49,729 nt of DNA from Bacillota bacterium (GTDB taxonomy: Bacteria > Bacillota_I > Bacilli_A > RF39 > UBA660), in NCBI GenBank assembly GCA_015059305.1, contig SVAQ01000009.1, forward strand, positions 1 through 49,729. The letters run 5' to 3'. This document shows positions 3,520-44,419 of this stretch, in pieces (the stretch's first letter is position 1; every line of letters begins with the position of its first letter). The notes beneath the pieces were generated by a model. That model searched no databases, was not told the DNA's origin, and saw nothing but the letters and a program-made list of their open reading frames with translations. A program made the translations under genes and the position numbers.

Positions 3520-3869
3520 GGGGTAGTTTGGTTTCGACATGTATTACTAGATATGATTGCAAGTAGTTGGCAAACTTTAAATGCACAAAAAAATAAATAA
3601 CGAAACTTCATATAGTTTCGCTCCACAATTTGCTTAATTAAGTAAAGGAGCACTTCTATCTTTTTCCCTTGTAGAAAAGACTAGGGGTTCATATATGCAA
3701 GGTATAAATTTATTATTGTTTAAGTAATAAATTCGAATGCTTATTAAACTTACTATTTAATAGGTACGTATATAGCCAGTTAAATAGGAAATTACAAATA
3801 GTACTAAACTTGTAGATATTGTATTATAGGATATATTGGACAGGAGTTCGACTCTCCTCTACTCCACCA
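3520..3869 (+). ncRNA. ssrA: Transfer-messenger RNA (tmRNA)
   Basis: A 350-nt one-piece tmRNA. The tRNA-like ends are clear: GGGGTAG at 3520-3526 pairs with CTACTCC near the 3' end, followed by the encoded ACCA (to 3869), with GGTTTCGACA and GTTCGACTC as D- and T-arm parts. The tag frame ends GCT CCA CAA TTT GCT TAA (stop 3635-3637). The best fit for the resume codon is AAA at 3587, giving the tag (A)KKINNETSYSFAPQFA; the resume point is inferred by comparison with Mycoplasma tags. GAAACT (3602-3607) and AGTTTC (3614-3619) form the helix inside the tag. tmRNA with SmpB rescues stalled ribosomes. Confidence 0.97.
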
Positions 3870-17879: not shown

Positions 17880-18761
17880 ATGATAAATACTAGAGTTGAG
17901 CATATTGTTTTTAAAGGTGTATCATTTGTATTTGGAACATTTTTATTAGCAATGTGTTATAATACGTTGCTTCTTCCAAACAATTTAGTGGTTGGAGGAA
18001 TGAGTGGTCTTTCAATCGTTTTTCAAGAAATGTTTGGTTGGAATGCTACCATATTTATTTATCTTTCAAGTATCGCTTTGTTAATAATAAGTTATATTTT
18101 TCTAGGCAAAGATGTTACCTCCAATACAGTAATTGGATCTTTGCTTTATCCGCTTATGATTAGTTTAACAACGCCGATATCTAATTTTATATTAGAACGA
18201 ATGGATGTTAATGAAACTATTGTCCTTGTTTGTTTAGCCGGTTTCTTTTATGGTTTAGCAAACGGAATTATATATAAAATGGGCTTTACCACTGGTGGCG
18301 GCGATGTCATTATGCAATTAGTTAGTAAGTATTTAAGAATATCAACGGCACGTGCTAATTTTACTTATAGTTTAATTATTATATTATTAAGTGGTTACGT
18401 TTTTGGTGTATCTGCTTTAATTTATGCAATCATTATATTAATAATTAGTAATCTTTTAATTGATAAAATTATAGTTGGCATTTCAAATAGTAAAGTTTTC
18501 TTTATTAGTACTCAAAAACTTAATGAAGTTAAATCTGTAATTCATGACGAATATGATTCTGGTTTTACTATTTTACCCACAAAGTCTTCGCATTTTCATA
18601 AAAGAGGAGAACTTATTATGGTAGTTGTTCCTAATAGAGCATATTATTCCTTTAAAAATAGAATTTTAGAAATCGATCCTAAAGCATTCTTTATTATTAA
18701 TGATTGCTATGAAGTTGGTGGCGGACATCGTAAACAAAACATTCCATTTCTAAACATGTAA
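17880..18761 (+). CDS. YitT family membrane protein (DUF161/DUF2179)
   Basis: 293 residues: five to six membrane helices in the first 200 residues (NNLVVGGMSGLSIV and GFTTGGGDVI are the two repeated glycine-rich family motifs), then a soluble DUF2179 ferredoxin-like domain (about 205-285, ending YEVGGGHRK). The function is not established; homologues occur in many copies in Bacillota. ATG 17880 has GGAGAGG upstream. Divergent from gerQ, followed by a strong terminator. Confidence 0.9.
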   Translation: MINTRVEHIVFKGVSFVFGTFLLAMCYNTLLLPNNLVVGGMSGLSIVFQEMFGWNATIFIYLSSIALLIISYIFLGKDVTSNTVIGSLLYPLMISLTTPISNFILERMDVNETIVLVCLAGFFYGLANGIIYKMGFTTGGGDVIMQLVSKYLRISTARANFTYSLIIILLSGYVFGVSALIYAIIILIISNLLIDKIIVGISNSKVFFISTQKLNEVKSVIHDEYDSGFTILPTKSSHFHKRGELIMVVVPNRAYYSFKNRILEIDPKAFFIINDCYEVGGGHRKQNIPFLNM

Positions 18762-18788
18762 TCATCTAGAAATAGATGATTTTTTTTG
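18760..18788 (+). terminator. Rho-independent terminator
   Basis: AATCATCTA (18760-18768) pairs with TAGATGATT (18773-18781), tetraloop GAAA, then eight T. Confidence 0.92.
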
Positions 18789-18795
18789 TTATACT
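18787..18795 (+). promoter_or_regulatory. Extended -10 promoter for fkbH-acp
   Basis: TGTTATACT begins in the last T of the terminator just upstream. AGGAGG and the fkbH ATG follow within 25 bases. Confidence 0.6.
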
Positions 18796-18817
18796 TTTTA
18801 TAGGAGGAATATAAAAT

Positions 18818-20593
18818 ATGAAGGAACTAATGTATCCTTTTGACAATACATATATATTAAAGAATAAAAAAAAGTTAAAAAAAATATTAGAAGAAAATAA
18901 ATTTAGTATAGAAAAAAAGATTGCTATTTTAGGTGGATCTACTACAAATGATATTACAAAAGTATTAGAGCTTTTTTTATTAAATTATCGCATTAAACCA
19001 ATATTTTATGAGTCAGAATATAATAAGTATTATGAAGATGCTATATTTGATAATGAACAGTTAGAATCATTTCATCCTGAGATAATCTATATTCATACAA
19101 CATATCGAAATATAACAAGTTTTCCACATCCTGCCAATACAAAAGAAGAAGTTGAGTCATTAAAATTACATGAGTATAATCGTTTTGAAAGTATTTGGAA
19201 TAAACTTTTTGAAAGATTTCCAAATGTAATTATTATTCAAAATAATTTTGAAATGCCTTTTTATAGATTGTTAGGTAATCTTGAAGTAACTGATATTCAT
19301 GGGAAAATTAATTATATAAATGAGTTAAATAGCATGTTTTATAAATTTGCTAACGAGCATCGTAATTTTTATATTAATGATATAAATTATTTAAGTGCTG
19401 AATATGGGCTTGAAAAATGGCACGATTTATCAGTTTATTACTTATATAAATATGCTTTAGATATTAATGCAATACCAAATTTATCATTTAATATTGCAAA
19501 AATTATTAAAGCAATTTGTGCGCAAAATAAAAAAGTATTTGCTATAGATTTAGATAATACAATGTGGGGCGGTATTATTGGAGATGATGGTGTTGAAAAT
19601 ATTCAAATTGGTAAAGAAACAGCTGCGGGCGAAGGTTATTATGAATTTCAAGGTTACTTAAAAGAGCATAAGAATATTGGCGTTTCATTAACGATAGCTT
19701 CGAAAAATGAACATGAAAATGCCTTGATTGGGTTAAATCATCCAAGTGGAATTCTAAGACCAGAAGATTTCATAACCATTAAAGCTAATTGGAATCCCAA
19801 AAATATCAACATAGTCAGTACTGCAAACGAAATGAATTTAACTCCTGATAGTTTTGTGTTTTTAGATGATAATCCAATGGAAAGGGATATTGTTTATAAA
19901 AACATAGATAATATAGCGGTACCAGAATTAGATAAAATTGAAAATTACATAAAAATTGTCGACCGAAATGGATATTTTGAATCACTAGGTATTTCTAGCG
20001 AAGATCTTAAAAGAGATGCTATGTATAAAGAAAATTATCAAAGAAATGAATTATTAACAAAATTTGAAAATTACGAAGATTATTTACGTAGTTTAAATAT
20101 GATTTCTATAATAAAACCGTTTGATGAAATAGCGTATAATCGTTTATCGCAACTTAGTAATAAAAGTAATCAATTCAATTTGACTACTAAAAGATATTCT
20201 GTAAGTGAAATAGAGGCAGTTGCTAACGATAATACGTACATTACTTTATATGGGGACTTAAAAGATGTGTTCGGAGATAACGGTATTGTTTCGTTAGTTA
20301 TTGGAAAGATTAAAGAAAATGAATTACTTGTAGATTTATGGATTATGAGTTGTCGGGTTTTAAAAAGAGGAATGGAACAAGCGATGATGGATAAACTGGT
20401 TGAAAAGTGTCACGAATTTAATATTAATACAATAAAAGGATTTTACTATCCTACTGCTAAAAACAAGATGGTCAAAGATTTTTATTCAGAATTTGGATTT
20501 AACAAAATTTCTGAAGATGCTGAAGGCAATACCGTATGGCAGTTAAATGTTTCTGAATATAAAAAGAAAAATGAAATAATTGAGGTGAAATAA
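18818..20593 (+). CDS. FkbH-like HAD-IIIC protein (glyceryl-ACP loading enzyme)
   Basis: 591 residues in the full FkbH layout: an N-terminal SGNH-like domain (about 33-225, starting IAILGGSTTND), a HAD phosphatase domain with nucleophile motif DLDNTMWGG (D244, D246), ASKN (K296) and FLDDNP (349-353), then a GNAT-like C-terminal domain (about 410-575). Characterised FkbH proteins take the D-glyceryl-phosphate group from 1,3-bisphosphoglycerate, dephosphorylate it and load glyceryl onto an ACP. The discrete ACP directly downstream (start overlapping the fkbH stop) is the natural partner. Polyketide genes, the usual setting, are absent; the neighbours are membrane O-acylation genes. Confidence 0.9.
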   Translation: MKELMYPFDNTYILKNKKKLKKILEENKFSIEKKIAILGGSTTNDITKVLELFLLNYRIKPIFYESEYNKYYEDAIFDNEQLESFHPEIIYIHTTYRNITSFPHPANTKEEVESLKLHEYNRFESIWNKLFERFPNVIIIQNNFEMPFYRLLGNLEVTDIHGKINYINELNSMFYKFANEHRNFYINDINYLSAEYGLEKWHDLSVYYLYKYALDINAIPNLSFNIAKIIKAICAQNKKVFAIDLDNTMWGGIIGDDGVENIQIGKETAAGEGYYEFQGYLKEHKNIGVSLTIASKNEHENALIGLNHPSGILRPEDFITIKANWNPKNINIVSTANEMNLTPDSFVFLDDNPMERDIVYKNIDNIAVPELDKIENYIKIVDRNGYFESLGISSEDLKRDAMYKENYQRNELLTKFENYEDYLRSLNMISIIKPFDEIAYNRLSQLSNKSNQFNLTTKRYSVSEIEAVANDNTYITLYGDLKDVFGDNGIVSLVIGKIKENELLVDLWIMSCRVLKRGMEQAMMDKLVEKCHEFNINTIKGFYYPTAKNKMVKDFYSEFGFNKISEDAEGNTVWQLNVSEYKKKNEIIEVK

Positions 20594-20826
20594 TGGAAGA
20601 AATTTACGAAAGAGTTAATAAAGTTTTTTGCGATGTTTTTGATGATAATTCAATTAAAGTCGATGCGCAAACTACTAGCGAAGATATTGAAGACTGGGAT
20701 TCATTAGAACATATAAATTTAATTGTGGCAATAGAAAATGAGTTTGGAGTTAAGTTCGGGATGAATGAAGTAACTAGCATGAAAAATGTTGGTGAAATGG
20801 TTAAACTTATTAACGACAAAATTTGA
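20593..20826 (+). CDS. Acyl carrier protein (discrete, FkbH-partner)
   Basis: 77 residues with the phosphopantetheine site DSLEH (S37) in a four-helix ACP framework. It overlaps the fkbH stop (TAATG), so the two are made together. It is not next to fatty-acid genes. Likely carrier of the glyceryl thioester, comparable to DltC in D-alanylation. Holo-ACP synthase is encoded 6.3 kb downstream. An ACP for lipid synthesis cannot be fully excluded. Confidence 0.92.
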   Translation: MEEIYERVNKVFCDVFDDNSIKVDAQTTSEDIEDWDSLEHINLIVAIENEFGVKFGMNEVTSMKNVGEMVKLINDKI

Positions 20827-20856
20827 TTTACGTTATACTATCTAAAATGATATAAT
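20827..20856 (+). promoter_or_regulatory. Promoter of the SGNH-MBOAT operon
   Basis: TTTACG (20827-20832), an 18-base spacer and TATAAT (20851-20856) preceded by TGA. It begins right at the end of the ACP gene. Confidence 0.6.
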
Positions 20857-20885
20857 CAAAAGTGATACTAGAAAGGTTATAAGAT

Positions 20886-22127
20886 ATGCGAAAGGTATGG
20901 AAAAAAATTGTAGTTACCATTTTAATTAGTATAGGATTTATAACTTCATGGGCAGTATTGGGGATATTGGCTTTTGGAACTAATTTTATTAGCATTAGTT
21001 TAGTAGGAAATGACGAAATATATCTTAATATTAATAATGAATATTTTGAAAATGGATATCGAGGTAATTATTTATTAGCAGATGTTGATAAAAAAATCCA
21101 AGTTAATGGTTATATTGATAATAAAAAAATTGGAACATACGAACTAAAATATACATTAAGCGGTTTTCTTGGTGATGTTGAAAAAACAAGAAAAGTTCAC
21201 GTAGTAGACAATGAACCTCCCACAATTAAGCTTATAGGAGATACAACAATATATTTAACACAAAAACAAAAGTATATTGAATATGGTTATGCTGTTTATG
21301 ATAATGTAGATAAAAACTTATCTAAAAATGTTAAAATAGAATCAAATTTAGATAACTTTAAAATTGGAAAATATGAAATAAAATATACCGTTGAAGATTC
21401 CTCGGGAAATAGCGCTACAGTAACAAGACAAGTGGAAGTTATCAAAGCTAATTTATTATCAGCCCCACCAGAGGCATTTTGGTTAGTCGATGTTTATCAA
21501 GATATTATTTTATCACCTAGTGAAACGGAATATGATTATATAAATGATATGACTATTCTAGGAGATAGTAACATTCGTTATTTATATGTTCATGGTAAGT
21601 ACTTGCCAGGAAAACAAGTTTGGGGAAAAGATAATTTGAATGCAGTAGAACTAAGCACTTCCAAGATAAAAATACATGATGATAATAGTGAAATGCTAGC
21701 TAGCGAAGCAATTGAAAAATATCAGCCAAAATATTTAGTGGTATCTTTGGGATTTGGAAGTGTACTTAATTTAACTAAGAATAATTTTATTAGTTATTCT
21801 GAACAATTTATAATAAATGTCCTTGAAAAATATCCTCAAACTAAATTAATGATAGTATCCTTGCCTCCAATTGCTACGGATACTTTATACGCTAAATTTC
21901 AAAATAAAACTAATCAATTTAATTACTATTTACTTGAACTTTGCGCTAAATACAAAATAGGTTTTATTAATGTGGCAGATGAATTAAAAGGTGAAGATGG
22001 TTATGGAAATCCTGATTATTTTGCTTGTACTAGTGAGCTGGATTGTGGATTTCATTTAAATAATAAAGGAAAAGAATTATATATAAATCATTTAAAAAGA
22101 ATTGATATGAGTAAGGAGATGGAATAA
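20886..22127 (+). CDS. Membrane-anchored protein with two Ig-like (DUF5011) domains and an SGNH hydrolase-like domain
   Basis: 413 residues. Membrane anchor 8-31; two bacterial Ig-like DUF5011-type repeats (about 40-108 and 112-187, each ending in the GTYELKYT / GKYEIKYT pattern); then an SGNH-like domain with block I LGDSN (S228) and block V DCGFH (D386, H390). No clear GxND block III is seen, so the oxyanion hole is unusual. Homologues accompany MBOAT acyltransferases in many Bacillota. Likely extracytoplasmic acyl transferase or esterase acting with the MBOAT below; DltD and AlgX are the functional parallels. A paralogue lies at 25534. Confidence 0.85.
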   Translation: MRKVWKKIVVTILISIGFITSWAVLGILAFGTNFISISLVGNDEIYLNINNEYFENGYRGNYLLADVDKKIQVNGYIDNKKIGTYELKYTLSGFLGDVEKTRKVHVVDNEPPTIKLIGDTTIYLTQKQKYIEYGYAVYDNVDKNLSKNVKIESNLDNFKIGKYEIKYTVEDSSGNSATVTRQVEVIKANLLSAPPEAFWLVDVYQDIILSPSETEYDYINDMTILGDSNIRYLYVHGKYLPGKQVWGKDNLNAVELSTSKIKIHDDNSEMLASEAIEKYQPKYLVVSLGFGSVLNLTKNNFISYSEQFIINVLEKYPQTKLMIVSLPPIATDTLYAKFQNKTNQFNYYLLELCAKYKIGFINVADELKGEDGYGNPDYFACTSELDCGFHLNNKGKELYINHLKRIDMSKEME

Positions 22128-22574
22128 ATGAAAAAATTTATATTAATGATGGTTATAGCAATGGGAATTACGGCTTGTGGAGGAAATAGTAATCTAACAA
22201 GCGTCGATATTAATGGCGCTAGTATTGCCCTTGATGAAAAGCTAGGAAACATGTCTTCGGTAAACGAAGATGAATTAGAAAGTATATATCAAATAGACAC
22301 TAATTTAATGGAAGAGTATGTTATTAAAGCTAGCGATATTGCTAATGGAAATTTATATGCAATTATACTTGTTAGTGAAGAAAATAAAACTGAAGTAAAA
22401 AATCAAATGACTAATTATTTTGATATTTTAGTAGAGCAAAATGTATTATATTCTCCCGAAGCCGTAAACTTACTAAAAAATTATTTAGAAACATCAATTG
22501 GCGATTATTTAATTTACATTTCTTCAGAAGATAATCAAGCAACATATAATATTATAAAGGAATATACTAAATAG
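22128..22574 (+). CDS. DUF4358 lipoprotein
   Basis: 148 residues with a lipoprotein signal peptide and lipobox ITAC (cysteine 17). The mature part follows the DUF4358 pattern: a short acidic start, EEYVIKASDIANGN, and a C-terminal IGDYLIYISSED. The function is unknown; in Clostridia this family repeatedly sits beside MBOAT and DHHW genes, as here. It starts immediately after the SGNH gene stop. Confidence 0.82.
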   Translation: MKKFILMMVIAMGITACGGNSNLTSVDINGASIALDEKLGNMSSVNEDELESIYQIDTNLMEEYVIKASDIANGNLYAIILVSEENKTEVKNQMTNYFDILVEQNVLYSPEAVNLLKNYLETSIGDYLIYISSEDNQATYNIIKEYTK

Positions 22575-22576
22575 TT

Positions 22577-24022
22577 ATGGTTTTTAGTAGCACAATTTTC
22601 CTTTTCTTTTTTTTGCCAATAGTTTTAATTTTATACTATCTTGTTCCTAGTAAATTTAAAAATATTATTTTGCTTTTTAGCAGTCTAGTATTTTATGCTT
22701 GGGGAGAACCAATATATATTATTTTAATGTGCATTTCATCTTTTGTGGATTATCTAAATGGAAGATTACTTGCTAAAAATAATAATGAAAAAACGCGAAA
22801 AAGATTCTTAACAATTGCTATTTTTATTAATTTATCTTTATTAGGCTTTTTTAAATATAGTGATTTCTTAATAAGAATTTGCAATAGCATTTTTAATACT
22901 TCAATACCACTTTTAAATCTTGGCTTACCAATTGGTATTAGTTTTTATACATTTCAGACAATGAGCTATAGCATAGATGTCTATCGTCGTTCTGTAGATG
23001 TTGAAACAAACTATTTTCGTTATTTAACATACGTATCCTTATTTCCTCAGTTAGTGGCCGGCCCTATTGTAAGATACAGTACGATTGCTAATGAATTAAA
23101 GGATCGAAAAATAATTTTTGATAACATTGTTGAAGGATTTCTAAGATTTTTACGAGGGTTATTTAAAAAAATCTTAATTGCTAATAATATTGGTATAATG
23201 TACGAAACAATTTTAGCTTCAGATTTAAATCAGTTATCAGTTTTAACTTTATGGTTAGGAATTATTTGTTATGCTGTACAAATCTATTTTGATTTTTCTG
23301 GCTATAGCGATATGGCTATTGGTATTGGAAAAATGTTAGGCTTTAATTTTAATGAAAATTTTGATTATCCGTATATTTCAAAATCTATCAGTGAATTTTG
23401 GCGTCGTTGGCATATTAGTTTAGGGACATGGTTTAAAGATTATGTTTTGTATCCATTTTTAAAAAGTGATCATATTCAGAAATTACAAAGTGCTTTAAAA
23501 GATAAATGTGGAAAAACAGTTGGAAAAAATATAACTATTGCTTTAGGAACCTTATTAGTTTTTTTTCTAACAGGACTTTGGCATGGAGCTAATTATAATT
23601 TTATATTCTGGGGACTATATTATGCTTTCTTTTTAATAATCGAAGATATTTTCTTAAAAAAGGCTTTACGGTCTCACAAAATTTTAAGTCATATTTATGT
23701 CTGTATGGTTGTATTAATTGGTTATGTTATTTTTAGTATTGAAGATTTATCGATTTTAAGTTCATATTTTAATGGCTTATTTGGATTATCCTCTTTACCG
23801 TTAATAGACCAATCATTTGTATTCTATTTAACTAATTATGGATTAATGATTTTTATTGGAATAATATTTTGTATGCCTATTATGCAGATTATTCCTAATA
23901 AAATAAAAGATAGTATGATATTTAATATATTGAAAGGGATTGTGTATGTAATACTTTTCTTGGTTTGTATCTGTTTTATAGTGAGTGACTCATATAATCC
24001 ATTTTTATATTTTAGATTTTAA
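22577..24022 (+). CDS. MBOAT family O-acyltransferase
   Basis: 481 residues, about 11-12 membrane helices. The MBOAT catalytic elements are present: FWRRWHISL (H279) and GLWHGANYNF (H336), with the entry motif SGYSDMAIGIGKMLG before them. The family includes DltB (teichoic acid D-alanylation) and AlgI/PatA (polysaccharide acetylation), which pass an acyl group from a cytoplasmic carrier to an extracellular acceptor. The fkbH-acp pair upstream supplies a plausible acyl-ACP donor, which makes the DltB-like route the better model. The first codons follow the lipoprotein stop by 2 bases. Confidence 0.95.
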   Translation: MVFSSTIFLFFFLPIVLILYYLVPSKFKNIILLFSSLVFYAWGEPIYIILMCISSFVDYLNGRLLAKNNNEKTRKRFLTIAIFINLSLLGFFKYSDFLIRICNSIFNTSIPLLNLGLPIGISFYTFQTMSYSIDVYRRSVDVETNYFRYLTYVSLFPQLVAGPIVRYSTIANELKDRKIIFDNIVEGFLRFLRGLFKKILIANNIGIMYETILASDLNQLSVLTLWLGIICYAVQIYFDFSGYSDMAIGIGKMLGFNFNENFDYPYISKSISEFWRRWHISLGTWFKDYVLYPFLKSDHIQKLQSALKDKCGKTVGKNITIALGTLLVFFLTGLWHGANYNFIFWGLYYAFFLIIEDIFLKKALRSHKILSHIYVCMVVLIGYVIFSIEDLSILSSYFNGLFGLSSLPLIDQSFVFYLTNYGLMIFIGIIFCMPIMQIIPNKIKDSMIFNILKGIVYVILFLVCICFIVSDSYNPFLYFRF

Positions 24023-24031
24023 GGTGATACG

Positions 24032-25144
24032 ATGAAAGAATTAATAAATAAAATTATATTTATAATTACAATTAGCATAATAGGAGTCTTTAGTATTTGG
24101 TTTCTGTTAAAAAAGCCGATATTATTTTCAGAAAATGAAAATCGTTATTTAACTATGTTTCCCAAAATTTCTTTAAAAAGTCTTGCTGAAGGAAAACTAA
24201 CGTCAAAGATTGAAGAATATATTAACGATCAATTTCCTCTTCGGGATTTCTTAGTAGGGATAAAAACTAATGTTGAAATTTTGTTAGGAAAAACAAAAAT
24301 TAATGATATATATATTGGTAAGGATAATTATTTAATTCCTACATTCAATAAAAATAATAATTTTCAAAAAATTATTGATACATTAAATACCTTTGAAAAT
24401 AGAATATCAGTTCCTGTTGATTTAATAATAGCTCCGAATTCAATTGAAATATATAGTGAAAAATTACCTATTAATGATGAAAAAAATAATGGTATTAAGG
24501 AAATAGAAAAGATATATAATTCATATGATGGGAATGTAATCAATGTTCATGAGATTCTTTTAAAGAATAAATTAGAATATGATTTGTATTATCGCACTGA
24601 TCACCATTGGACTACATATGGAGCTTATTATGCATATAACGAATATATTAGGCAAATTGGAAAAGATAAAAAGTTATTATCTAATTATAATATTAATTTG
24701 ATTTCTAGTGATTTTTATGGTACTTCATATTCTAAAGCAAATTATTATTCATTACCTGCAGATGACATATATCTTTTTGAAGATAATTTTAATTACAAAG
24801 TTAATTATGTTGTAGAAAATAAAATAGAAAATAGTCCATATAATATGAATTATTTAAATAAAAAGGATAAGTATTCAGTTTTTTTAGATAATAATCATGC
24901 ATTAATTGAAATTGATAATTTGGATAATTCTAACGGCGAAAATTTATTACTAGTTAAAAACAGCTATGGTAATAGTTTTGCCCCATTTATAGCCGCGGAT
25001 TTTGATACAGTAAGTGTTATTGATTTAAGATATTATAAAACAGATGTATCAGCTTATGTACAAGAAAATAATATAACGCGGGTGCTTATTTTATATGATA
25101 TTAATGGAATATATACTGACCCATCAATATATAAGTTGAGGTGA
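24032..25144 (+). CDS. DHHW family protein (AlgJ/AlgX-like SGNH)
   Basis: 370 residues: membrane anchor 5-27, then the DHHW domain with FSENENRYL (32-40), TDHHWTTYGAYYA (189-201) and the late serine motif KNSYGNSF (309-316). In alginate acetylation AlgJ/AlgX carry the same DHH-W and Ser set and receive the acyl group after MBOAT transfer. It is one of three extracytoplasmic SGNH-type proteins in this cluster. AAGGTGA precedes the ATG. Confidence 0.9.
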   Translation: MKELINKIIFIITISIIGVFSIWFLLKKPILFSENENRYLTMFPKISLKSLAEGKLTSKIEEYINDQFPLRDFLVGIKTNVEILLGKTKINDIYIGKDNYLIPTFNKNNNFQKIIDTLNTFENRISVPVDLIIAPNSIEIYSEKLPINDEKNNGIKEIEKIYNSYDGNVINVHEILLKNKLEYDLYYRTDHHWTTYGAYYAYNEYIRQIGKDKKLLSNYNINLISSDFYGTSYSKANYYSLPADDIYLFEDNFNYKVNYVVENKIENSPYNMNYLNKKDKYSVFLDNNHALIEIDNLDNSNGENLLLVKNSYGNSFAPFIAADFDTVSVIDLRYYKTDVSAYVQENNITRVLILYDINGIYTDPSIYKLR

Positions 25145-25146
25145 AT

Positions 25147-25455
25147 ATGATAGATAATTTATATCAAGACTCTTTATCTTTTAAAGATAAGATACTTTCT
25201 ATAGTGTGTTATATATGGTTAGTTCCTTTAGTTATTTTATTTATTCCCAAAAAAGGTCGATTTATAAAAAGAAATTTAATAATAGGAATTATATTAAGTA
25301 TTATAATTACAGGTTGGATAATTACAATATTAGTGGTTGTAAGAAAAAATTGTGATTTACAATTATTAAATGTTATTAATTGTATTGTATTTGCTTTTTT
25401 AATAATATTTCAGATAATACAAATTATTAGAATTATAAGAAGAAAGAGTTACTAA
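25147..25455 (+). CDS. Small two/three-helix membrane protein (paralogue of the 26776 product)
   Basis: 102 residues. A short soluble start (MIDNLYQDSLSFKDKILS), then hydrophobic segments at about 15-33, 44-65 and 75-95 and a basic end (RIIRRKSY). The spacing and the KDKILSIVCYIWLVPL...FIKRN pattern recall Tic20/DUF4870-like proteins. It is overlapped by the DHHW stop region (GAGGTGA serves as ribosome site for ATG 25147; GTG 25141 is the alternative). It ends in a terminator, closing the operon. Confidence 0.65.
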   Translation: MIDNLYQDSLSFKDKILSIVCYIWLVPLVILFIPKKGRFIKRNLIIGIILSIIITGWIITILVVVRKNCDLQLLNVINCIVFAFLIIFQIIQIIRIIRRKSY

Positions 25456-25470
25456 ACTTTTTCTTTTTTT
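25441..25470 (+). terminator. Terminator overlapping the end of the small membrane gene
   Basis: AGAAAGAGTT (25441-25450) pairs with AACTTTTTCT (25455-25464, one G-U), then a T-run to 25470. Confidence 0.75.
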
Positions 25471-25489
25471 GTTCATTTAATTAAATACA

Positions 25490-25498
25490 TGATATAAT
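25490..25498 (+). promoter_or_regulatory. Extended -10 promoter for the second SGNH gene
   Basis: TGATATAAT, with TTGTTC 18 bases upstream of the hexamer as a possible -35. Confidence 0.65.
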
Positions 25499-25533
25499 AG
25501 TCTAATAGTAGAAGGGTTATTGATAGGTGAAGC

Positions 25534-26766
25534 ATGAAAATTAGTATTAATATCATGAAATCTGTGTTCGTAATTTTATTCTTTTTATTATCATGGTTTA
25601 TAACTCTCTTTTTATTTTATGGGCCTGAATTTATCAATATATCTCTTATTGGGGAAGAGAAAGTAAAACTTAATATAAATAGTAATTACTTTGAAACAGG
25701 ATTTATAGCCAACATTGGCCCTGTTAAACTTACTAAATTTGTCAATGTAAAATCAAATGTTGATAACTCGAAATTAGGAAATTATGAAGTTAAATATTAT
25801 GTTGATTATTTAATCGGGCGTAAGGAAATTACAAGAGAAGTTGAAGTAATTGACGGAATATCACCTGTTATTAATTTAAAGGGGGAGACCAATATTGTTC
25901 TTAATAAATATTATAATTATGAAGAACCTGGGTATGAAGCATCTGACAATTTGGATGGTGATTTAACTGAAAGTGTTAAAGTAGTATCTAATGTTGATAC
26001 ATCAACATTAGGAACATATTCTGTAAAATATAGTTTATCCGATAAAGCTGGGAATAAGACTGTGGTAGAAAGGTCTGTGGAAATAGTAGATAATAATATT
26101 TTAAGTAATCCTGTTTCAACTTTTAGATTAAATGGTTTATTTGGCAATGTTATGCTTGAAAAAAGCGATATAGAATATTCGTTTATGGATGATGCGGTAA
26201 TTGTCGGTGACAGTAATATTCGTTTTCTTTATCAAAAAGGACAATATTTAAACGCTGATCAGGTTTGGGGCAAAAACAACTTAAATGCCGGTGATATGAG
26301 TACTGCGAAAGTTATGATTCATGAAACTGGTGAAGAATTAACGGTAATTGATGCTGTTAAAAAGTATAAGCCTAAATATTTAATTGTTTCATTTGGAATA
26401 ACTAGTACTTCTTTTTTAACCAAACAAGTATTTATAGATAAAGTTAGTAGTTTCTTTGAATTAATGAAAGAGGAATGTCCAGATACAAAACTAGTTGTAG
26501 TTTCAATATTACCAGTTAGTATTGATTATGCCGTATTACAAAGTCCAATTAATAAATATAATTATTATTTATTAGAATTATGTGATAAATATAAAATAGG
26601 TTATATAAATATAACTGATTCATTAAAAGATGAGTCAGGATATGGTTCGCAAAATTATTTTTATTGTGCAAGCCAAGAGGATTGTGGTTATCATTTAAGC
26701 GAAGCTGGTAAGGAATTTTATGTAGATTACTTAAAACATGTTGATTTATCAAAAGTAATTGACTAA
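25534..26766 (+). CDS. Second Ig-like/SGNH membrane protein (paralogue of the 20886 product)
   Basis: 410 residues with the same order as the first copy: anchor 8-29, Ig-like repeats (about 38-106 and 110-186, including YEASDNLDGDLTESVKV and GTYSVKYSLSD), SGNH-like domain with VGDSN (S227) and DCGYH (D383, H387). The two proteins align along their whole length, with shared motifs such as QVWGKxNLNA and NYYLLELCDKYKIG. This looks like a duplication followed by divergence, perhaps for two acceptors or two acyl groups. AGGTGA precedes the ATG. Confidence 0.85.
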   Translation: MKISINIMKSVFVILFFLLSWFITLFLFYGPEFINISLIGEEKVKLNINSNYFETGFIANIGPVKLTKFVNVKSNVDNSKLGNYEVKYYVDYLIGRKEITREVEVIDGISPVINLKGETNIVLNKYYNYEEPGYEASDNLDGDLTESVKVVSNVDTSTLGTYSVKYSLSDKAGNKTVVERSVEIVDNNILSNPVSTFRLNGLFGNVMLEKSDIEYSFMDDAVIVGDSNIRFLYQKGQYLNADQVWGKNNLNAGDMSTAKVMIHETGEELTVIDAVKKYKPKYLIVSFGITSTSFLTKQVFIDKVSSFFELMKEECPDTKLVVVSILPVSIDYAVLQSPINKYNYYLLELCDKYKIGYINITDSLKDESGYGSQNYFYCASQEDCGYHLSEAGKEFYVDYLKHVDLSKVID

Positions 26767-26775
26767 GGAGTTGTT

Positions 26776-27102
26776 ATGAAAAAAATAACATTTGATGAAA
26801 AGTTAGATGCCATTGTAAGTTATCTTTTTGTTCTAGGGTTTATTCCTTTTTTTAAAAAAGATAAGTCAGTATTTCTAGAAAAACATTTACGTCGAGGTAA
26901 ATTGTTAAATATTATAATTTTTATATGGTTAATTTTTTCCATAATAAGTTTTAGGATTTTAAATATTACTAACATTTTATCAACAGGAGCAGTACAAATT
27001 ATACGTTTAATTTTATATGTTATTAACGCTATTTTTTGCATATTGATTCTTAGTTATCAATTAGTTTGGATAGTAAAAATTATCAAGAAAAAAGACTGTT
27101 AA
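26776..27102 (+). CDS. Small membrane protein, Tic20/DUF4870-like
   Basis: 108 residues. FDEKLDAIVSYLFVLGFIPFF, then KHLRRGKLLNIIIF and two further helices, a layout seen in DUF4870/Tic20-like proteins. It pairs with the second SGNH gene as the 25147 product pairs with the first module, so SGNH plus small membrane protein is the duplicated unit. Its last codons (KKKDC) form an arm of the terminator shared with acpS. Confidence 0.65.
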   Translation: MKKITFDEKLDAIVSYLFVLGFIPFFKKDKSVFLEKHLRRGKLLNIIIFIWLIFSIISFRILNITNILSTGAVQIIRLILYVINAIFCILILSYQLVWIVKIIKKKDC

Positions 27103-27113
27103 TCAGTCTTTTT
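27089..27113. terminator. Bidirectional terminator between the membrane protein and acpS
   Basis: AAAAAGACTG (27089-27098) pairs with CAGTCTTTTT (27104-27113), loop TTAAT. Both gene ends lie inside it. Confidence 0.88.
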
Positions 27114-27435
27114 GTATACATACATAACTTATTGCGTATTCTTTTTCGTGAGATATAGAAATCAAAATATTATAATTTTTATATAAAAATTTAGGTTTAT
27201 TTTTTTCATAAATAATATTTATATCAGGCATGGCAATAATATCCTCTGATGGTAGAGCTTTAATAATTGCCTCTTTAGCACAAAAACGACCTGCTAGAAA
27301 TTCAATTTTATTATATCCTTTTTTTTGATTATATAATTTTAATTCATCTTTAGATAATATTTTGCTTATAAAATTTATATCTTTATTCGAAAAACGATTG
27401 ATATTTGTGATATCACAACCAATTCCAATAATCAT
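27103..27435 (-). CDS. acpS: Holo-[acyl-carrier-protein] synthase
   Basis: 110 residues from ATG 27435 (AAGGAG upstream; in-frame codons to 27468 are unsupported). Starts MIIGIGCDI with D8 of the metal site, then FLAGRFCAKEAIIKAL. It transfers 4'-phosphopantetheine from CoA to the ACP serine. Because the discrete ACP of the glyceryl cluster lies nearby, AcpS is the likely activator of that carrier as well as of the fatty-acid ACP. Confidence 0.93.
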   Translation of the reverse strand: MIIGIGCDITNINRFSNKDINFISKILSKDELKLYNQKKGYNKIEFLAGRFCAKEAIIKALPSEDIIAMPDINIIYEKNKPKFLYKNYNILISISHEKEYAISYVCIQKD

Positions 27436-27530
27436 AATATACTCCTTAATTATTTTTAATTTTACCATATTTTTATTTGCTGTAAAACTTAATAATTCTA
27501 ATAATTACCATTTATTAAACGACATAAAAG

Positions 27531-27539
27531 TGATATAAT
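27531..27539 (+). promoter_or_regulatory. Extended -10 promoter for ftsEX
   Basis: TGATATAAT, 22 bases before the ftsE start. No good -35. Confidence 0.65.
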
Positions 27540-27560
27540 CTACATTAGAATGGAGGTTCT

Positions 27561-28262
27561 ATGAAGTTTATAGAGTTTAAGGATGTAACAAAGACCTATA
27601 GTAATGGGATTACTGCATGCGCAGATATTTCTGTTTCAATAGACAAAGGTGAATTTGTTTTTGTTATTGGTTTGACCGCTAGTGGTAAATCAACATTTAC
27701 TAAGATGTTATATCGTGAAGAAAAACCTACCAGAGGAATTGTTTCTGTAGGAGGGGTTAATGTTGGAAAATTACGAAATCGCAAAGTATATAAATTTCGT
27801 CGAAAAGTAGGAATTGTTTTTCAAGATTATAAATTGCTTCCTCAACTTACAGCATATGAAAATGTGGCATTTGCATTGGAATGTGTTGGTATGAAATCAA
27901 GTGAAATTAGACCTAAAGTTTTAAAGGCATTAGAGAGAGTGGGATTAAAAGATAAAGTAAGAAGTTTTCCAAAGGAGCTTTCAGGCGGTGAGCAACAAAG
28001 GGTTTGTATAGCAAGAGCCATTGTAAATGAACCAAAATTGCTAGTTTGCGATGAACCAACAGGAAATTTGGATCCTAAAACAAGTAAAGAAATAATGAAT
28101 GTTATTTCGTCTGTTAACAAAGAATTAGGAACAACTGTAATTATGGCTACCCACGATAAAGAAATTGTTAATCGGATGAAAAAACGTGTTTTAGTTATTA
28201 ACAACGGTATGTTAGTTGGTGATTATGAGAAAGGAAGTTATAAGGCAAATGAGAGCGATTAG
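27561..28262 (+). CDS. ftsE: Cell division ATP-binding protein FtsE
   Basis: 233 residues, ABC ATPase. Walker A GLTASGKST (37-45), signature LSGGEQQR and Walker B LLVCDEPTGNLD. The Walker A has Leu-Thr-Ala where most FtsE proteins have Pro-Ser/Thr-Gly/Ala, but all functional residues are kept. With FtsX it couples ATP use to activation of a wall hydrolase outside the membrane. It overlaps the ftsX start. Confidence 0.95.
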   Translation: MKFIEFKDVTKTYSNGITACADISVSIDKGEFVFVIGLTASGKSTFTKMLYREEKPTRGIVSVGGVNVGKLRNRKVYKFRRKVGIVFQDYKLLPQLTAYENVAFALECVGMKSSEIRPKVLKALERVGLKDKVRSFPKELSGGEQQRVCIARAIVNEPKLLVCDEPTGNLDPKTSKEIMNVISSVNKELGTTVIMATHDKEIVNRMKKRVLVINNGMLVGDYEKGSYKANESD

Positions 28263-31079: not shown

Positions 31080-31108
31080 TTGTTATCTAATTTTTGTTGT
31101 GCTATAAT
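31080..31108 (+). promoter_or_regulatory. Promoter of the repeat-protein/signal peptidase operon
   Basis: TTGTTA (31080-31085), a 17-base spacer with TGC, then TATAAT (31103-31108). Confidence 0.75.
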
Positions 31109-31132
31109 TTTATTAGAATAAGGAGATCCGAA

Positions 31133-33178
31133 TTGAACGAAATTGACAAAGAAAAAGCAATTTTAGAAGAAGCTCCTGATTTTGACAACCAGTTAAAAAT
31201 ACTCGAGGAAGAACAAGCAGAAGTAGTCAAAAAAAGGAAATGGTATATACTTATTTTAAGTATCTTTCTTTGCGTTGTCTTAATTTTTGTGGTTTCGTAT
31301 TCAACGGTTTATCATTATCGTGAATATGGTCCGGGACAAGGCAATGCTAGTAATTGTCAATATGTAAATTTAAAGATTAATGGTAGCCCTGTACCTAACT
31401 TAAATATTACAGATGGCAAGGACTGTAAGCCTGTATATAATATTGATTATTATAACAATCGTAAACCAACATTTAATATAGATATTTACGGTGATAGAAC
31501 TGTTATTTTTAATAAAACTAATCAATTAGATTCTACAGGTAGCTATTGTGTATTAAACTGTGATAGTAATGGTGATGGTTGGCCAGATTATAACTTAGAT
31601 TTAGATGGTAATGGAACTGCAGACATTAACATTGTTAAAAATCCAAATGGTAGTAAAAATTGCAATTTAAATTGTGATATTAATTTTGATACTATTCCTG
31701 ATTTAAATATTGATACTGATGGTGATGGAATAGCTGATATAAATATTACTGATGGTGAGGATAATAAACCTAAATATAATATTGATTATAAAGGTAATCG
31801 TAAACCAATATTTAATGTGAAAGACAATGGTGAAATATTAAATTTAGTTACAGATATTAATGATAATCCTAATTGTGAACGCAATTGTGATCTTGATGGA
31901 GATGGCTGGCCAGATTATAATATTGTATTATCGGAAAATAGCATAGCAATAATAAATGAATTAATTGAAAAAGGAACCAAGAAGGTAGAGTATAATAATT
32001 CAAAAAATATTGATTGGAAATGTGGTTTTGAAAATTTTGAACATTGCAAAACTAAAATTGAAACATATGATAATAAGTATATAAATATTGATATAAATGG
32101 AGATGGAATACCTGATGTAAATATTTCTAATGATGGTGGTAAAACAATAAGTAATCCAATTAATAAAGACGAAATAATAAATGTTGATGATAACAATGAT
32201 GGTTTTCCTGACTATAATATTGACATAAATGGAGATGGAATACCTGATTTAAATGTTATTGAGAATAATAAAAATAAATGTGAAAAAAATTGTGATACTA
32301 ATAAAGATGGAAAAAAAGATTATTTAATAGAGTATCCTAATAATACAGTTTCGATTAGTAATTTAAATATTGATATTGATTATGATGGTATTTGTGATAT
32401 TAATTGTGATTTAAATTTTGATTTAATACCAGATCTAAATATAGATATAGATGGAGATAATATCGCAGATCTAAATATTGATTATAATCATGATAAGATC
32501 GCCGATTTTAACATTGATACTAATGGAGATGGAATAGCAAATAACAATTTAGATGCATATGGTATTGGGGTTTGTAATTTCAATTGTGCTGGATTAAATA
32601 ATGTAAATAATACGGTTGCTTGCACAAAAAATTGTGATACGGATAATGATGGCTGGCCAGACGTTAACGTTGATTTAGACGGTAATGGAGTATGTGACTT
32701 TAATTGTGAAGGAAATAGTAGTACAATAGATAAAGATAACAATTATTATTTAGATTCTGAATATAATTCAAAAGCAATCTTAGATATTATAGATAATGGG
32801 GATGCTGACTTTTATATTATGAATCCTTTGGAAATTAAATCAGAATCAATTGAACCAGGATGGAATGACAAGTATGTTATTGAAGTGAAAAATAATGCGC
32901 ATTACGCTGTAGCTTATCGAATTGTTTGGGAAAATGTTGTAAATGAATTTACGGATGTCAATAACTTAGATTATAGTTTAAGCCGTAGCAATACTGGATT
33001 TTTAGATAATTTAAAAGCTCCGCGAAATAGTATTGTTTTAAAAGATAATTTAATAATAAGAAATAATAGTAGTGCAAAATTTGTCTTAGATATTAGTTTC
33101 AAGGAAACTGGTATAAATCAAAATATTGATAGTGGAAAGACATTTAAAGGACAATTAAAAATTGAAGTAATTAAATAA
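31133..33178 (+). CDS. Large surface protein with acidic DxDGDG-type (Ca-binding-like) repeats and TasA/camelysin-like C-terminal domain
   Basis: 681 residues from TTG 31133 (AGGAG seven to eight bases upstream; upstream codons to 31094 are unsupported). A cytoplasmic acidic start (1-37), a membrane helix (38-58), then about 15 repeats of the form DxDGDGxPDxNID with interspersed NCD cysteines (about 145-545). The repeat loop matches calcium-binding loops of thrombospondin type 3/dockerin/EF-hand type. A longer unit (ITDGxDxKPxYNID..NRKPxFN) occurs twice. The end (about 555-681) resembles the TasA/camelysin fold: IEPGWNDKYVIEVKNNAHYAVAY..., a late GKTFKGQLKIEV. It is followed by a SipW-like signal peptidase, its probable processing enzyme. 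Confidence 0.82.
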   Translation: MNEIDKEKAILEEAPDFDNQLKILEEEQAEVVKKRKWYILILSIFLCVVLIFVVSYSTVYHYREYGPGQGNASNCQYVNLKINGSPVPNLNITDGKDCKPVYNIDYYNNRKPTFNIDIYGDRTVIFNKTNQLDSTGSYCVLNCDSNGDGWPDYNLDLDGNGTADINIVKNPNGSKNCNLNCDINFDTIPDLNIDTDGDGIADINITDGEDNKPKYNIDYKGNRKPIFNVKDNGEILNLVTDINDNPNCERNCDLDGDGWPDYNIVLSENSIAIINELIEKGTKKVEYNNSKNIDWKCGFENFEHCKTKIETYDNKYINIDINGDGIPDVNISNDGGKTISNPINKDEIINVDDNNDGFPDYNIDINGDGIPDLNVIENNKNKCEKNCDTNKDGKKDYLIEYPNNTVSISNLNIDIDYDGICDINCDLNFDLIPDLNIDIDGDNIADLNIDYNHDKIADFNIDTNGDGIANNNLDAYGIGVCNFNCAGLNNVNNTVACTKNCDTDNDGWPDVNVDLDGNGVCDFNCEGNSSTIDKDNNYYLDSEYNSKAILDIIDNGDADFYIMNPLEIKSESIEPGWNDKYVIEVKNNAHYAVAYRIVWENVVNEFTDVNNLDYSLSRSNTGFLDNLKAPRNSIVLKDNLIIRNNSSAKFVLDISFKETGINQNIDSGKTFKGQLKIEVIK

Positions 33179-44289: not shown

Positions 44290-44302
44290 ATCGAATAGAA
44301 AA

Positions 44303-44398
44303 AACGAGGAACCAAAGACAGTAGGGGCGTACAGCTTAATAATCCTACCGAGGGGAAAGTTATAAGTCTTTTAAAACTTCCCCATGGGAAGTTTTTTC
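44303..44398 (+). promoter_or_regulatory. L10 (rplJ) leader with attenuator
   Basis: The L10/L12-binding leader core GAGGAACCAAAGACAGTAGGGG (about 44305-44326) pairs through CAGTAGG with CCTACCG (44344-44350). An attenuator follows: AAAACTTCCC (44373-44382) with GGGAAGTTTT (44386-44395) and T-run. The left arm can instead pair with GGGGAAAGTT (44352-44361). L10(L12)4 binding would favour termination. Confidence 0.85.
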
Positions 44399-44419
44399 TA
44401 AATATAATAAGGAGGAAAT

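Follow-up and report, generated by a model that had tools for sequence, protein, structure and literature searches.

Transfer of acyl groups to extracellular polymers by a membrane-bound O-acyltransferase (MBOAT) and an SGNH-fold partner is known from several bacterial systems. In the Dlt pathway (DltA-DltC-DltB-DltX-DltD), which D-alanylates teichoic acids, the donor is a carrier thioester charged by an AMP ligase, and the MBOAT, DltB, docks the carrier DltC on its cytosolic helix HC (PMC11035591). PatA1/PatB1 of Bacillus cereus, PatA/PatB and AlgI/AlgJ/AlgX represent another arrangement: a 2025 account (PMC12148441) presents MBOAT-SGNH O-acetylation pathways as users of acyl-CoA that have no carrier. 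FkbH proteins paired with a discrete acyl carrier protein (ACP) are familiar from polyketides (FK520, tetronates such as tetromadurin), and the reaction assigned to such pairs in PMC7489565 is the conversion of 1,3-bisphosphoglycerate to glyceryl-ACP. Here we describe a ten-gene cluster in a 49,729-nucleotide stretch of Bacillota DNA (contig SVAQ01000009.1 of assembly GCA_015059305.1; hereafter the window), in which an FkbH-ACP pair stands next to an MBOAT and a DHHW protein.

With the Dlt pathway the cluster shares a putative carrier thioester donor, an MBOAT whose predicted fold is closest to DltB in the PDB, an SGNH-fold partner and AcpS; it differs by an FkbH loader in place of the AMP ligase, a DHHW protein in place of DltD, a predicted glyceryl group, and a PatA/AlgI-type MBOAT with its own shuttle motif and no DltX. 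The MBOAT body, the C-terminal FXYXXF and the residues of the DHHW/PatB1 partner are common to the PatA/PatB-type systems, but the cluster has a carrier, a loader and AcpS, and the YIPLGG segment is replaced. The FkbH domain, discrete ACP, HAD residues and SCR-motif Cys are those of polyketide FkbH-ACP pairs, but the FkbH belongs to another clade, no ketosynthase (KS) is seen and the partner is an MBOAT. Bacillota loci of the form FkbH-ACP-(MaoC-SDR or VOC)-MBOAT-SGNH, and their alphaproteobacterial relatives, have in common with the cluster the FkbH clade and an ACP of the WDSL family; those of Bacillota also share the carrier-type MBOAT segment. They differ in having an MBOAT of another clade (about 510 residues), often tailoring enzymes and another SGNH partner, and usually no DHHW protein. 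A search of titles and abstracts, in which subscription papers and preprints were mostly not covered, found no published account of an FkbH-ACP-MBOAT system.

The cluster is confirmed, all ten genes lying where the initial annotation had placed them. A carrier-fed MBOAT/SGNH system appears well supported by the strong association of the MBOAT with donor genes and by a docking-site signature in its sequence, and surface acylation by the full five-step scheme set out below is, in our judgement, probable. The dlt-like logic proposed in the annotation stands for the wiring of loader, carrier, MBOAT and SGNH protein, given the recurrent linkage, the carrier-type segment and the carriers found at MBOAT loci; it does not stand for a DltB-type MBOAT.

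The MBOAT and its proposed donor-side segment

On the DltB equivalog model LTA_dltB (TIGR04091) the MBOAT scores 156 bits, below the cut-off of 375, and trees group it, with its counterpart in locus L001 of Bacillota genome G001, among PatA/AlgI-type enzymes; simple homology to DltB was therefore rejected. Both histidines named in the annotation, H279 and H336, were read at their positions. The C-terminal hexapeptide FLYFRF (476-481) fits the acyl-shuttle motif FXYXXF described in PMC12148441 and completes the set of PatA-type shuttle and catalytic His residues; F476, Y478 and F481 are invariant in alignment A4. The strict motif forms the C-terminal end of 18 of 19 MBOATs from loci with FkbH and DHHW genes, 47 of 68 from FkbH loci and 32 of 38 unlinked MBOATs, and 17 of the 21 FkbH-locus MBOATs missing it retain FIY with I or V last. 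Since the shuttle Tyr is fused to the MBOAT C-terminus, the system can do without a DltX, and there is no call for the small membrane proteins to act as one; neither of them ends in FXYXXF, and a DltX role for them was rejected. AMP-binding, DltD and DltX families have no match among the ten cluster proteins (a dlt-like operon, L175, served for comparison). The shuttle motif, the PatA/AlgI-type identity and an unusual segment at residues 288-325 go beyond what the initial annotation had noticed.

This segment lies between the two histidines, where 34 of 36 unlinked MBOATs have a PLGG form, typically DYVYIPLGGNR within 32 residues. MBOATs of the 510-residue type have about 49 residues there (DY..YP.LKS...K.KFGKK.GKK), and an Oscillospiraceae type has DYLLYVPIFGK. 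The window MBOAT has no YIPLGG segment: it reads DYVLYPFLKSDHIQ at that position and DYVLYPFLKSDHIQKLQSALKDKCGKTVGKN between the two histidines. Compared in 12-residue blocks, it is nearer to PatA-type enzymes everywhere except at 289-324, where it is nearer to the FkbH-linked 510-type clade. Over residues 289-320 its mean identity is 51% to ten 510-type proteins and 12% to eleven PatA-type ones, a value lowered partly by a gap in the latter, versus 29% and 56% elsewhere. When segments only are compared, it scores a mean of 65.1 against 53 long segments, and shuffles score 18.9 +/- 2.1. Convergence instead of a segment exchange could also have produced this pattern. The segment aligns, through a gapped stretch, with DltB 298-317; according to PMC11035591, the DltC contacts on helix HC are Met302, Val305, Ile306, Met309, Lys312 and Arg317. 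An AlphaFold2 model of the window MBOAT has a confident helix at 298-311.

The form of the segment follows the presence of a carrier gene. Across 40 genomes, a carrier lies within 8 kb of 1 of 35 PLGG MBOATs versus all 31 non-PLGG ones (20 long, 3 read as long in L172-L174, 6 other and 2 DltB-like; Fisher p 5e-18 with kinship ignored), much of this association being built in by the choice of 25 of the 40 genomes for their FkbH. Nine unclassified MBOATs have no carrier within 8 kb, and 7 of the 82 MBOAT matches (four fragments, three weak) were left unused. In 55 further genomes drawn regardless of FkbH, a carrier occurs within about 8 kb of none of 17 PLGG MBOATs and near both non-PLGG ones (one long, one DltB-like). 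The long-segment MBOATs of L170-L174 stand with an AMP-ligase and a carrier and no FkbH, which indicates that it is the carrier, not FkbH, with which the segment goes. Conversely, the PLGG form may mark acyl-CoA use, as suggested by the 34 of 35 and 17 of 17 PLGG MBOATs with no carrier nearby.

These FkbH-free AMP-ligase/carrier/long-segment MBOAT/SGNH loci (L170:5373-11582, L171:11451-15917, L172:8421-12904, L173:6255-10700 and L174:6246-10797) form a second dlt-like family, whose substrate is perhaps an amino acid or the corresponding amine; L171 and L172 additionally encode a protein resembling pyridoxal phosphate decarboxylases/racemases.

The neighbouring genes might instead serve two separate functions, DUF4358-MBOAT-DHHW performing PatA1/PatB1-like O-acetylation from acetyl-CoA and FkbH-ACP acting elsewhere. 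The PatA-type MBOAT body favours this, as does the DHHW protein, closest among solved structures to B. cereus PatB1 (5v8d, E 7e-22), with which its DHHW motif aligns and whose KDS Ser is matched by Ser311. G001 also has, at L151:5405-8361, a second lipoprotein (DUF4358)-MBOAT-DHHW trio with YIPLGG and no FkbH, a probable acetyl-CoA counterpart. That trio is one of several observations that weigh against a carrier-fed MBOAT. P0131, 70% identical to the window MBOAT, has YIPLGG; and the nearest full-length MBOAT in 80 FkbH loci, long in 54 and of other form in 20, is PLGG in six. Four of these lie beside FkbH, in L077 and L106 together with an ACP and in L055 and L074 with no ACP found; that of L021 reads VPIGG, and that of L008 lies beyond a broken long one. 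Relatives of the Ig/SGNH proteins apparently share contigs with PLGG MBOATs (sizes 18945, 44310 and 36247), and the complete operon was seen in one further locus only, L001.

Against separate functions, the window MBOAT lacks YIPLGG and has a segment whose other occurrences are at carrier loci, whereas the second G001 MBOAT retains it. Of the nearest 22 classified homologues, counting that of the window itself, 21 show the long form and P0131 alone YIPLGG; the 95 that come next consist of 94 with PLGG and a single one with YISLGG (MBOATs under 440 residues and three of 120 homologues were excluded). Moreover, neither FabF nor FabH, which the ACP might otherwise serve, has a match in G001. We regard separate functions as quite unlikely, and prefer a carrier-fed MBOAT. 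P0131, set beside its sister proteins that have the long segment, could show when the segment changed. At L008:12142-16378, the 510-type MBOAT is in two frame pieces and an intact YIPLGG MBOAT-DHHW pair lies further downstream of FkbH-ACP; this arrangement may reflect an ongoing replacement or an error in the sequence.

Linkage of FkbH-ACP with MBOATs

The initial annotation proposed a survey of the linkage of fkbH, ACP and MBOAT genes, and named as refuting its reading a case in which fkbH-acp and the MBOAT are never linked. They are linked widely: among the best 80 of at least 580 FkbH relatives from a scan (A2) of a species-genome collection, an ACP gene is present at 74 loci and an MBOAT gene at 65, many of the contigs being short. 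From the MBOAT density of 40 genomes, 1.8% of 20-kb stretches would be expected to contain such a gene, and chance neighbourhood was rejected. Because these loci had been picked by similarity, a second sample was drawn without reference to the window. It comprises 44 loci. A set of 291 genomes of one class had 47 places that passed the TIGR01686 cut-off, and these gave 43 loci, since one was L011 again and six fell pairwise on three shared stretches; the remaining locus came from 198 genomes of another class. There, MBOATs are linked to 13 of 13 FkbHs inside the window clade and to 2 of 31 outside it, L129, too short for the FkbH tree, being counted outside despite its DHHW genes; L114 is identical in sequence to L028 in the trees. 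FkbH and MBOAT genes apparently lie together on four more contigs (20527, 97603, 39338 and 6720), judged by equal sizes, with 120 of 7998 matches listed on the FkbH side. The FkbH-ACP-MBOAT wiring is recurrent across many bacteria. FkbH itself is patchy, passing the cut-off in 2 of 198 genomes of G001's class and 35 of 291 of the other.

The window FkbH scores 259.7 bits on TIGR01686 (curated cut-off 146.65), and its HAD core, annotated as intact from the DLDNT motif, is indeed complete (D244, D246, T248, S295, K296, D350, D351). All 80 FkbH rows, polyketide FkbHs included, keep D244, D246, S295, D350, D351 and C512; T248 is kept in 76 and K296 in 77. Conservation of Cys512, which we take to be the holder of the acyl group, is consistent with glyceryl loading onto ACP from 1,3-bisphosphoglycerate. 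In a tree of 80 of 134 domain rows (54 were dropped by random thinning of L001-L080, and P0018, with odd duplicated insertions, was excluded from the FkbH alignment A2), the window FkbH falls in a clade of 45 rows with support 99/95*; an MBOAT is linked to 39 of them, 5 are accompanied by an ACP only and 1 by neither. The clade covers Bacillota and alphaproteobacterial plasmids, among them MBOAT-bearing plasmids of Sinorhizobium, Tistrella and Rhodobacteraceae; on plasmids of Streptomyces and Methylosinus, FkbH is in the classical polyketide setting. L111 and L123 have short FkbHs (about 350 residues) of a different branch, with MBOATs without PLGG less than 4 kb away. On a Niveispirillum plasmid (L082:7785-12265), the place of the MBOAT beside FkbH-ACP is occupied by another acyltransferase, a putative acetyltransferase of WcbI type, together with an SDR protein.

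The classical role of FkbH-ACP raises the alternative of a cryptic polyketide or lipid pathway, in which the pair supplies glyceryl or methoxymalonyl as a building block of some metabolite and the MBOAT acts on that metabolite. KS genes do adjoin FkbH in 6 of 44 second-sample loci and in L085 and L087. All KS-linked FkbHs of the 80-row tree, however, lie outside the window clade, which is that of the MBOAT-linked FkbHs; no KS family occurs among the 20 window proteins scanned, in keeping with the annotation's remark that no polyketide gene is present; and G001 has neither FabF nor FabH match. Such a pathway is highly improbable.

Further indications on the ACP come from ten genomes with FkbH-MBOAT loci, seven of which (G001-G005, G007, G008) have no FabF or FabH match by searches that were each positive in 13 of 14 control genomes; these absences, and those of carriers, are provisional, as the completeness of the genomes is not given. 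G009 has FabF-like matches containing stops and no FabH, and G006 and G010 have both, the FabH of G006 being under the cut-off. In the seven genomes, none of the 11 discrete carriers found by alignment A5 is more than 8 kb from an MBOAT; PF00550 alone had missed the second carrier of G003, and its match to a 988-residue frame in G008 was rejected as not being a discrete carrier. In G001, G002, G007 (both copies) and G008, the distance from FkbH to AcpS is at most 8 kb; in G003 AcpS adjoins a different MBOAT, in G004 it is on a different contig, and a search for it in G005 found none. G001 has a single carrier and a single AcpS (the sole PF01648 match), both at L001, and a fatty-acid or polyketide ACP was disfavoured for the window lineage. 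The ACP of the FkbH cluster is probably not for fatty acids.

The window and L001 FkbHs are sister to those of five loci bearing 510-type MBOATs, so that MBOAT and FkbH histories differ. In the MBOAT tree, the 510-type clade has 32 rows, 31 of them in FkbH loci (SH-aLRT 99), an Oscillospiraceae MBOAT-DHHW clade has 16, and some other FkbH-linked MBOATs fall elsewhere. Constraining the window and Oscillospiraceae types together was rejected by the approximately unbiased test (p-AU 1.5e-5, for groups named after a tree had been seen), and with it a single recruitment for both DHHW-type groups, which indicates that the FkbH-ACP/MBOAT pairing arose repeatedly. For the larger MBOAT tree, FkbH-locus MBOATs were thinned randomly and L166 and L169 omitted; a second tree had 55 chosen rows.

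Acyl group and proposed mechanism

Tailoring genes in related loci bear on the identity of the acyl group. FkbH and an MBOAT are no more than 6 kb apart in 82 of 131 loci (L001-L131); 22 of these 82 have MaoC, 15 SDR, 15 VOC, 30 another SGNH protein and 20 DHHW. MaoC and VOC never co-occur (chance of no overlap 0.005). FkbH-ACP-MaoC-SDR with an MBOAT, usually an SGNH protein and a variable gene order is found in L002, L004, L010, L018, L075, L092, L119 and others, and glyceryl-ACP could become lactyl-ACP there; FkbH-ACP-VOC-MBOAT is an alternative layout, in which a VOC epimerase could invert glyceryl. Gellan carries L-glyceryl esters; a literature look-up on gellan and glyceryl gave no result.

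These loci suggest another reading of the cluster, in which the MBOAT is carrier-fed and the polymer-bound acyl is not plain glyceryl: FkbH would load another phosphorylated acid, or glyceryl-ACP would be altered, for instance to lactyl, by enzymes encoded elsewhere. The frequency of MaoC, SDR and VOC genes implies that the ACP-bound acyl may be tailored in related systems, and dehydration plus reduction of glyceryl would yield lactyl, with a parallel in bryostatin. Yet no MaoC, SDR or VOC is found among the ten cluster proteins or near FkbH in L001, and of the 20 DHHW loci counted, 19 are free of all four additional families looked for, while the remaining one has only another SGNH protein. 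An altered acyl is accordingly unlikely, and plain, unmodified D-glyceryl probable since the MaoC/SDR and VOC genes that accompany related loci are absent from the cluster.

With glyceryl as the donor, five steps can be proposed. AcpS would attach phosphopantetheine to the ACP. FkbH would then take glyceryl from 1,3-bisphosphoglycerate, its HAD part removing the phosphate and C512 holding the acyl, and charge the ACP; the motifs for this are present, and the step is modelled on the FkbH literature. Glyceryl-ACP would dock on the carrier-type helix (about 289-320) that replaces YIPLGG, a role suggested by the association of carrier genes with this segment. H336 would help acyl transfer to Tyr478 of the FLYFRF shuttle, by analogy with PatA and DltX. 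The shuttle would finally pass the acyl to Ser311 of the DHHW protein, which would esterify a polymer outside the cell; a wall polysaccharide is the most likely one. The two Ig/SGNH proteins might be extra transferases or editing esterases: the GDSL match of the first is under the cut-off, and its AlphaFold2 model (pLDDT 90), with Ig domains and an SGNH domain, matches in the PDB Ig domains and, distantly, SGNH esterases (O-acetylesterases) and, lower, C. jejuni PatB (8tlb). Glyceryl is the likely acyl and a wall polymer a plausible acceptor; that FkbH substrates can differ also counts against the scheme.

More broadly, we give about even odds to a third class of MBOAT/SGNH systems, PatA-type with a fused shuttle Tyr and a dedicated carrier donor, in which the segment tells the donor class, the window MBOAT is a natural segment exchange rewired from acetyl-CoA to glyceryl-ACP, and FkbH-ACP, with or without MaoC/SDR or VOC, acts like a polyketide synthase loading module for glyceryl, lactyl or epimerised acyl groups on surface polymers. 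If the proposed mechanism is correct, a glycolytic intermediate would become a cell-surface ester, tying glycolysis directly to surface decoration, and PatA-type MBOAT/SGNH systems, said in PMC12148441 to lack carriers, would have a carrier-fed branch. One segment would provide a sequence rule for donor type, and the retention of ACP and AcpS in genomes without FabF/FabH matches would be explained. The 'HAD-IIIC phosphatase - acyl carrier protein - MBOAT' neighbourhoods of Bacillota and alphaproteobacterial plasmids, Sinorhizobium meliloti included, would gain a function; the records seen carry domain-type names only.

Layout of the cluster and neighbouring features

The features of the cluster are listed in Table 1. 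The FkbH stop codon ends, and the ACP start codon begins, with base 20593, a one-base overlap that bears out the annotated junction of FkbH with its DSLEH-bearing ACP, and gaps are at most 9 bases from Ig/SGNH protein 1 through small membrane protein 1. A weak scan of the plus strand found no terminator-like site in 18600-27700. Gene order in L001 is identical to that of the window throughout, AcpS included.

Table 1. Genes and motifs of the FkbH-ACP-MBOAT cluster (window coordinates)
Feature	Position	Strand	Remarks
FkbH: FkbH_N + HAD-IIIC + GNAT-like, predicted glyceryl loader	18818..20593	+	TIGR01686 and FkbH_N matches
HAD motif DLDNT of FkbH	19547-19561	+	
SCR-motif Cys512 of FkbH	20351-20353	+	
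Discrete ACP, PP-binding, DSLEH	20593..20826	+	pantetheine Ser37 at 20701-20703
Ig/SGNH protein 1: membrane-anchored, two Ig-like domains + SGNH-like	20886..22127	+	GDSN 226-229, H390
DUF4358 lipoprotein, lipobox GITAC	22128..22574	+	43.8 bits, cut-off 25
MBOAT, PatA/AlgI-type	22577..24022	+	64.2 bits, cut-off 27; H279 (23411-23413), H336 (23582-23584)
Putative carrier-type cytosolic segment of MBOAT, residues 289-320, replacing YIPLGG	23441..23536	+	aligns with DltC-docking helix HC of DltB
Acyl-shuttle hexapeptide FLYFRF at MBOAT C-terminus, residues 476-481, Tyr478	24002..24019	+	
DHHW protein, PatB1-like	24032..25144	+	109 bits, cut-off 25; DHHW 190-193, Ser311
Small membrane protein 1, no family	25141..25455	+	counterpart in L001
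Ig/SGNH protein 2	25534..26766	+	43% identical to Ig/SGNH protein 1
Small membrane protein 2, no family	26776..27102	+	counterpart in L001
AcpS holo-ACP synthase	27103..27468	-	convergent with operon

Elsewhere in the window, positions 31094-33178 encode a 694-residue protein with an N-terminal hydrophobic stretch, Asp/Asn/Gly-rich repeats and no Pfam match. A tmRNA with the tag ARYKFIIV lies at 3520-3869, and an L10 leader at 44294-44407.

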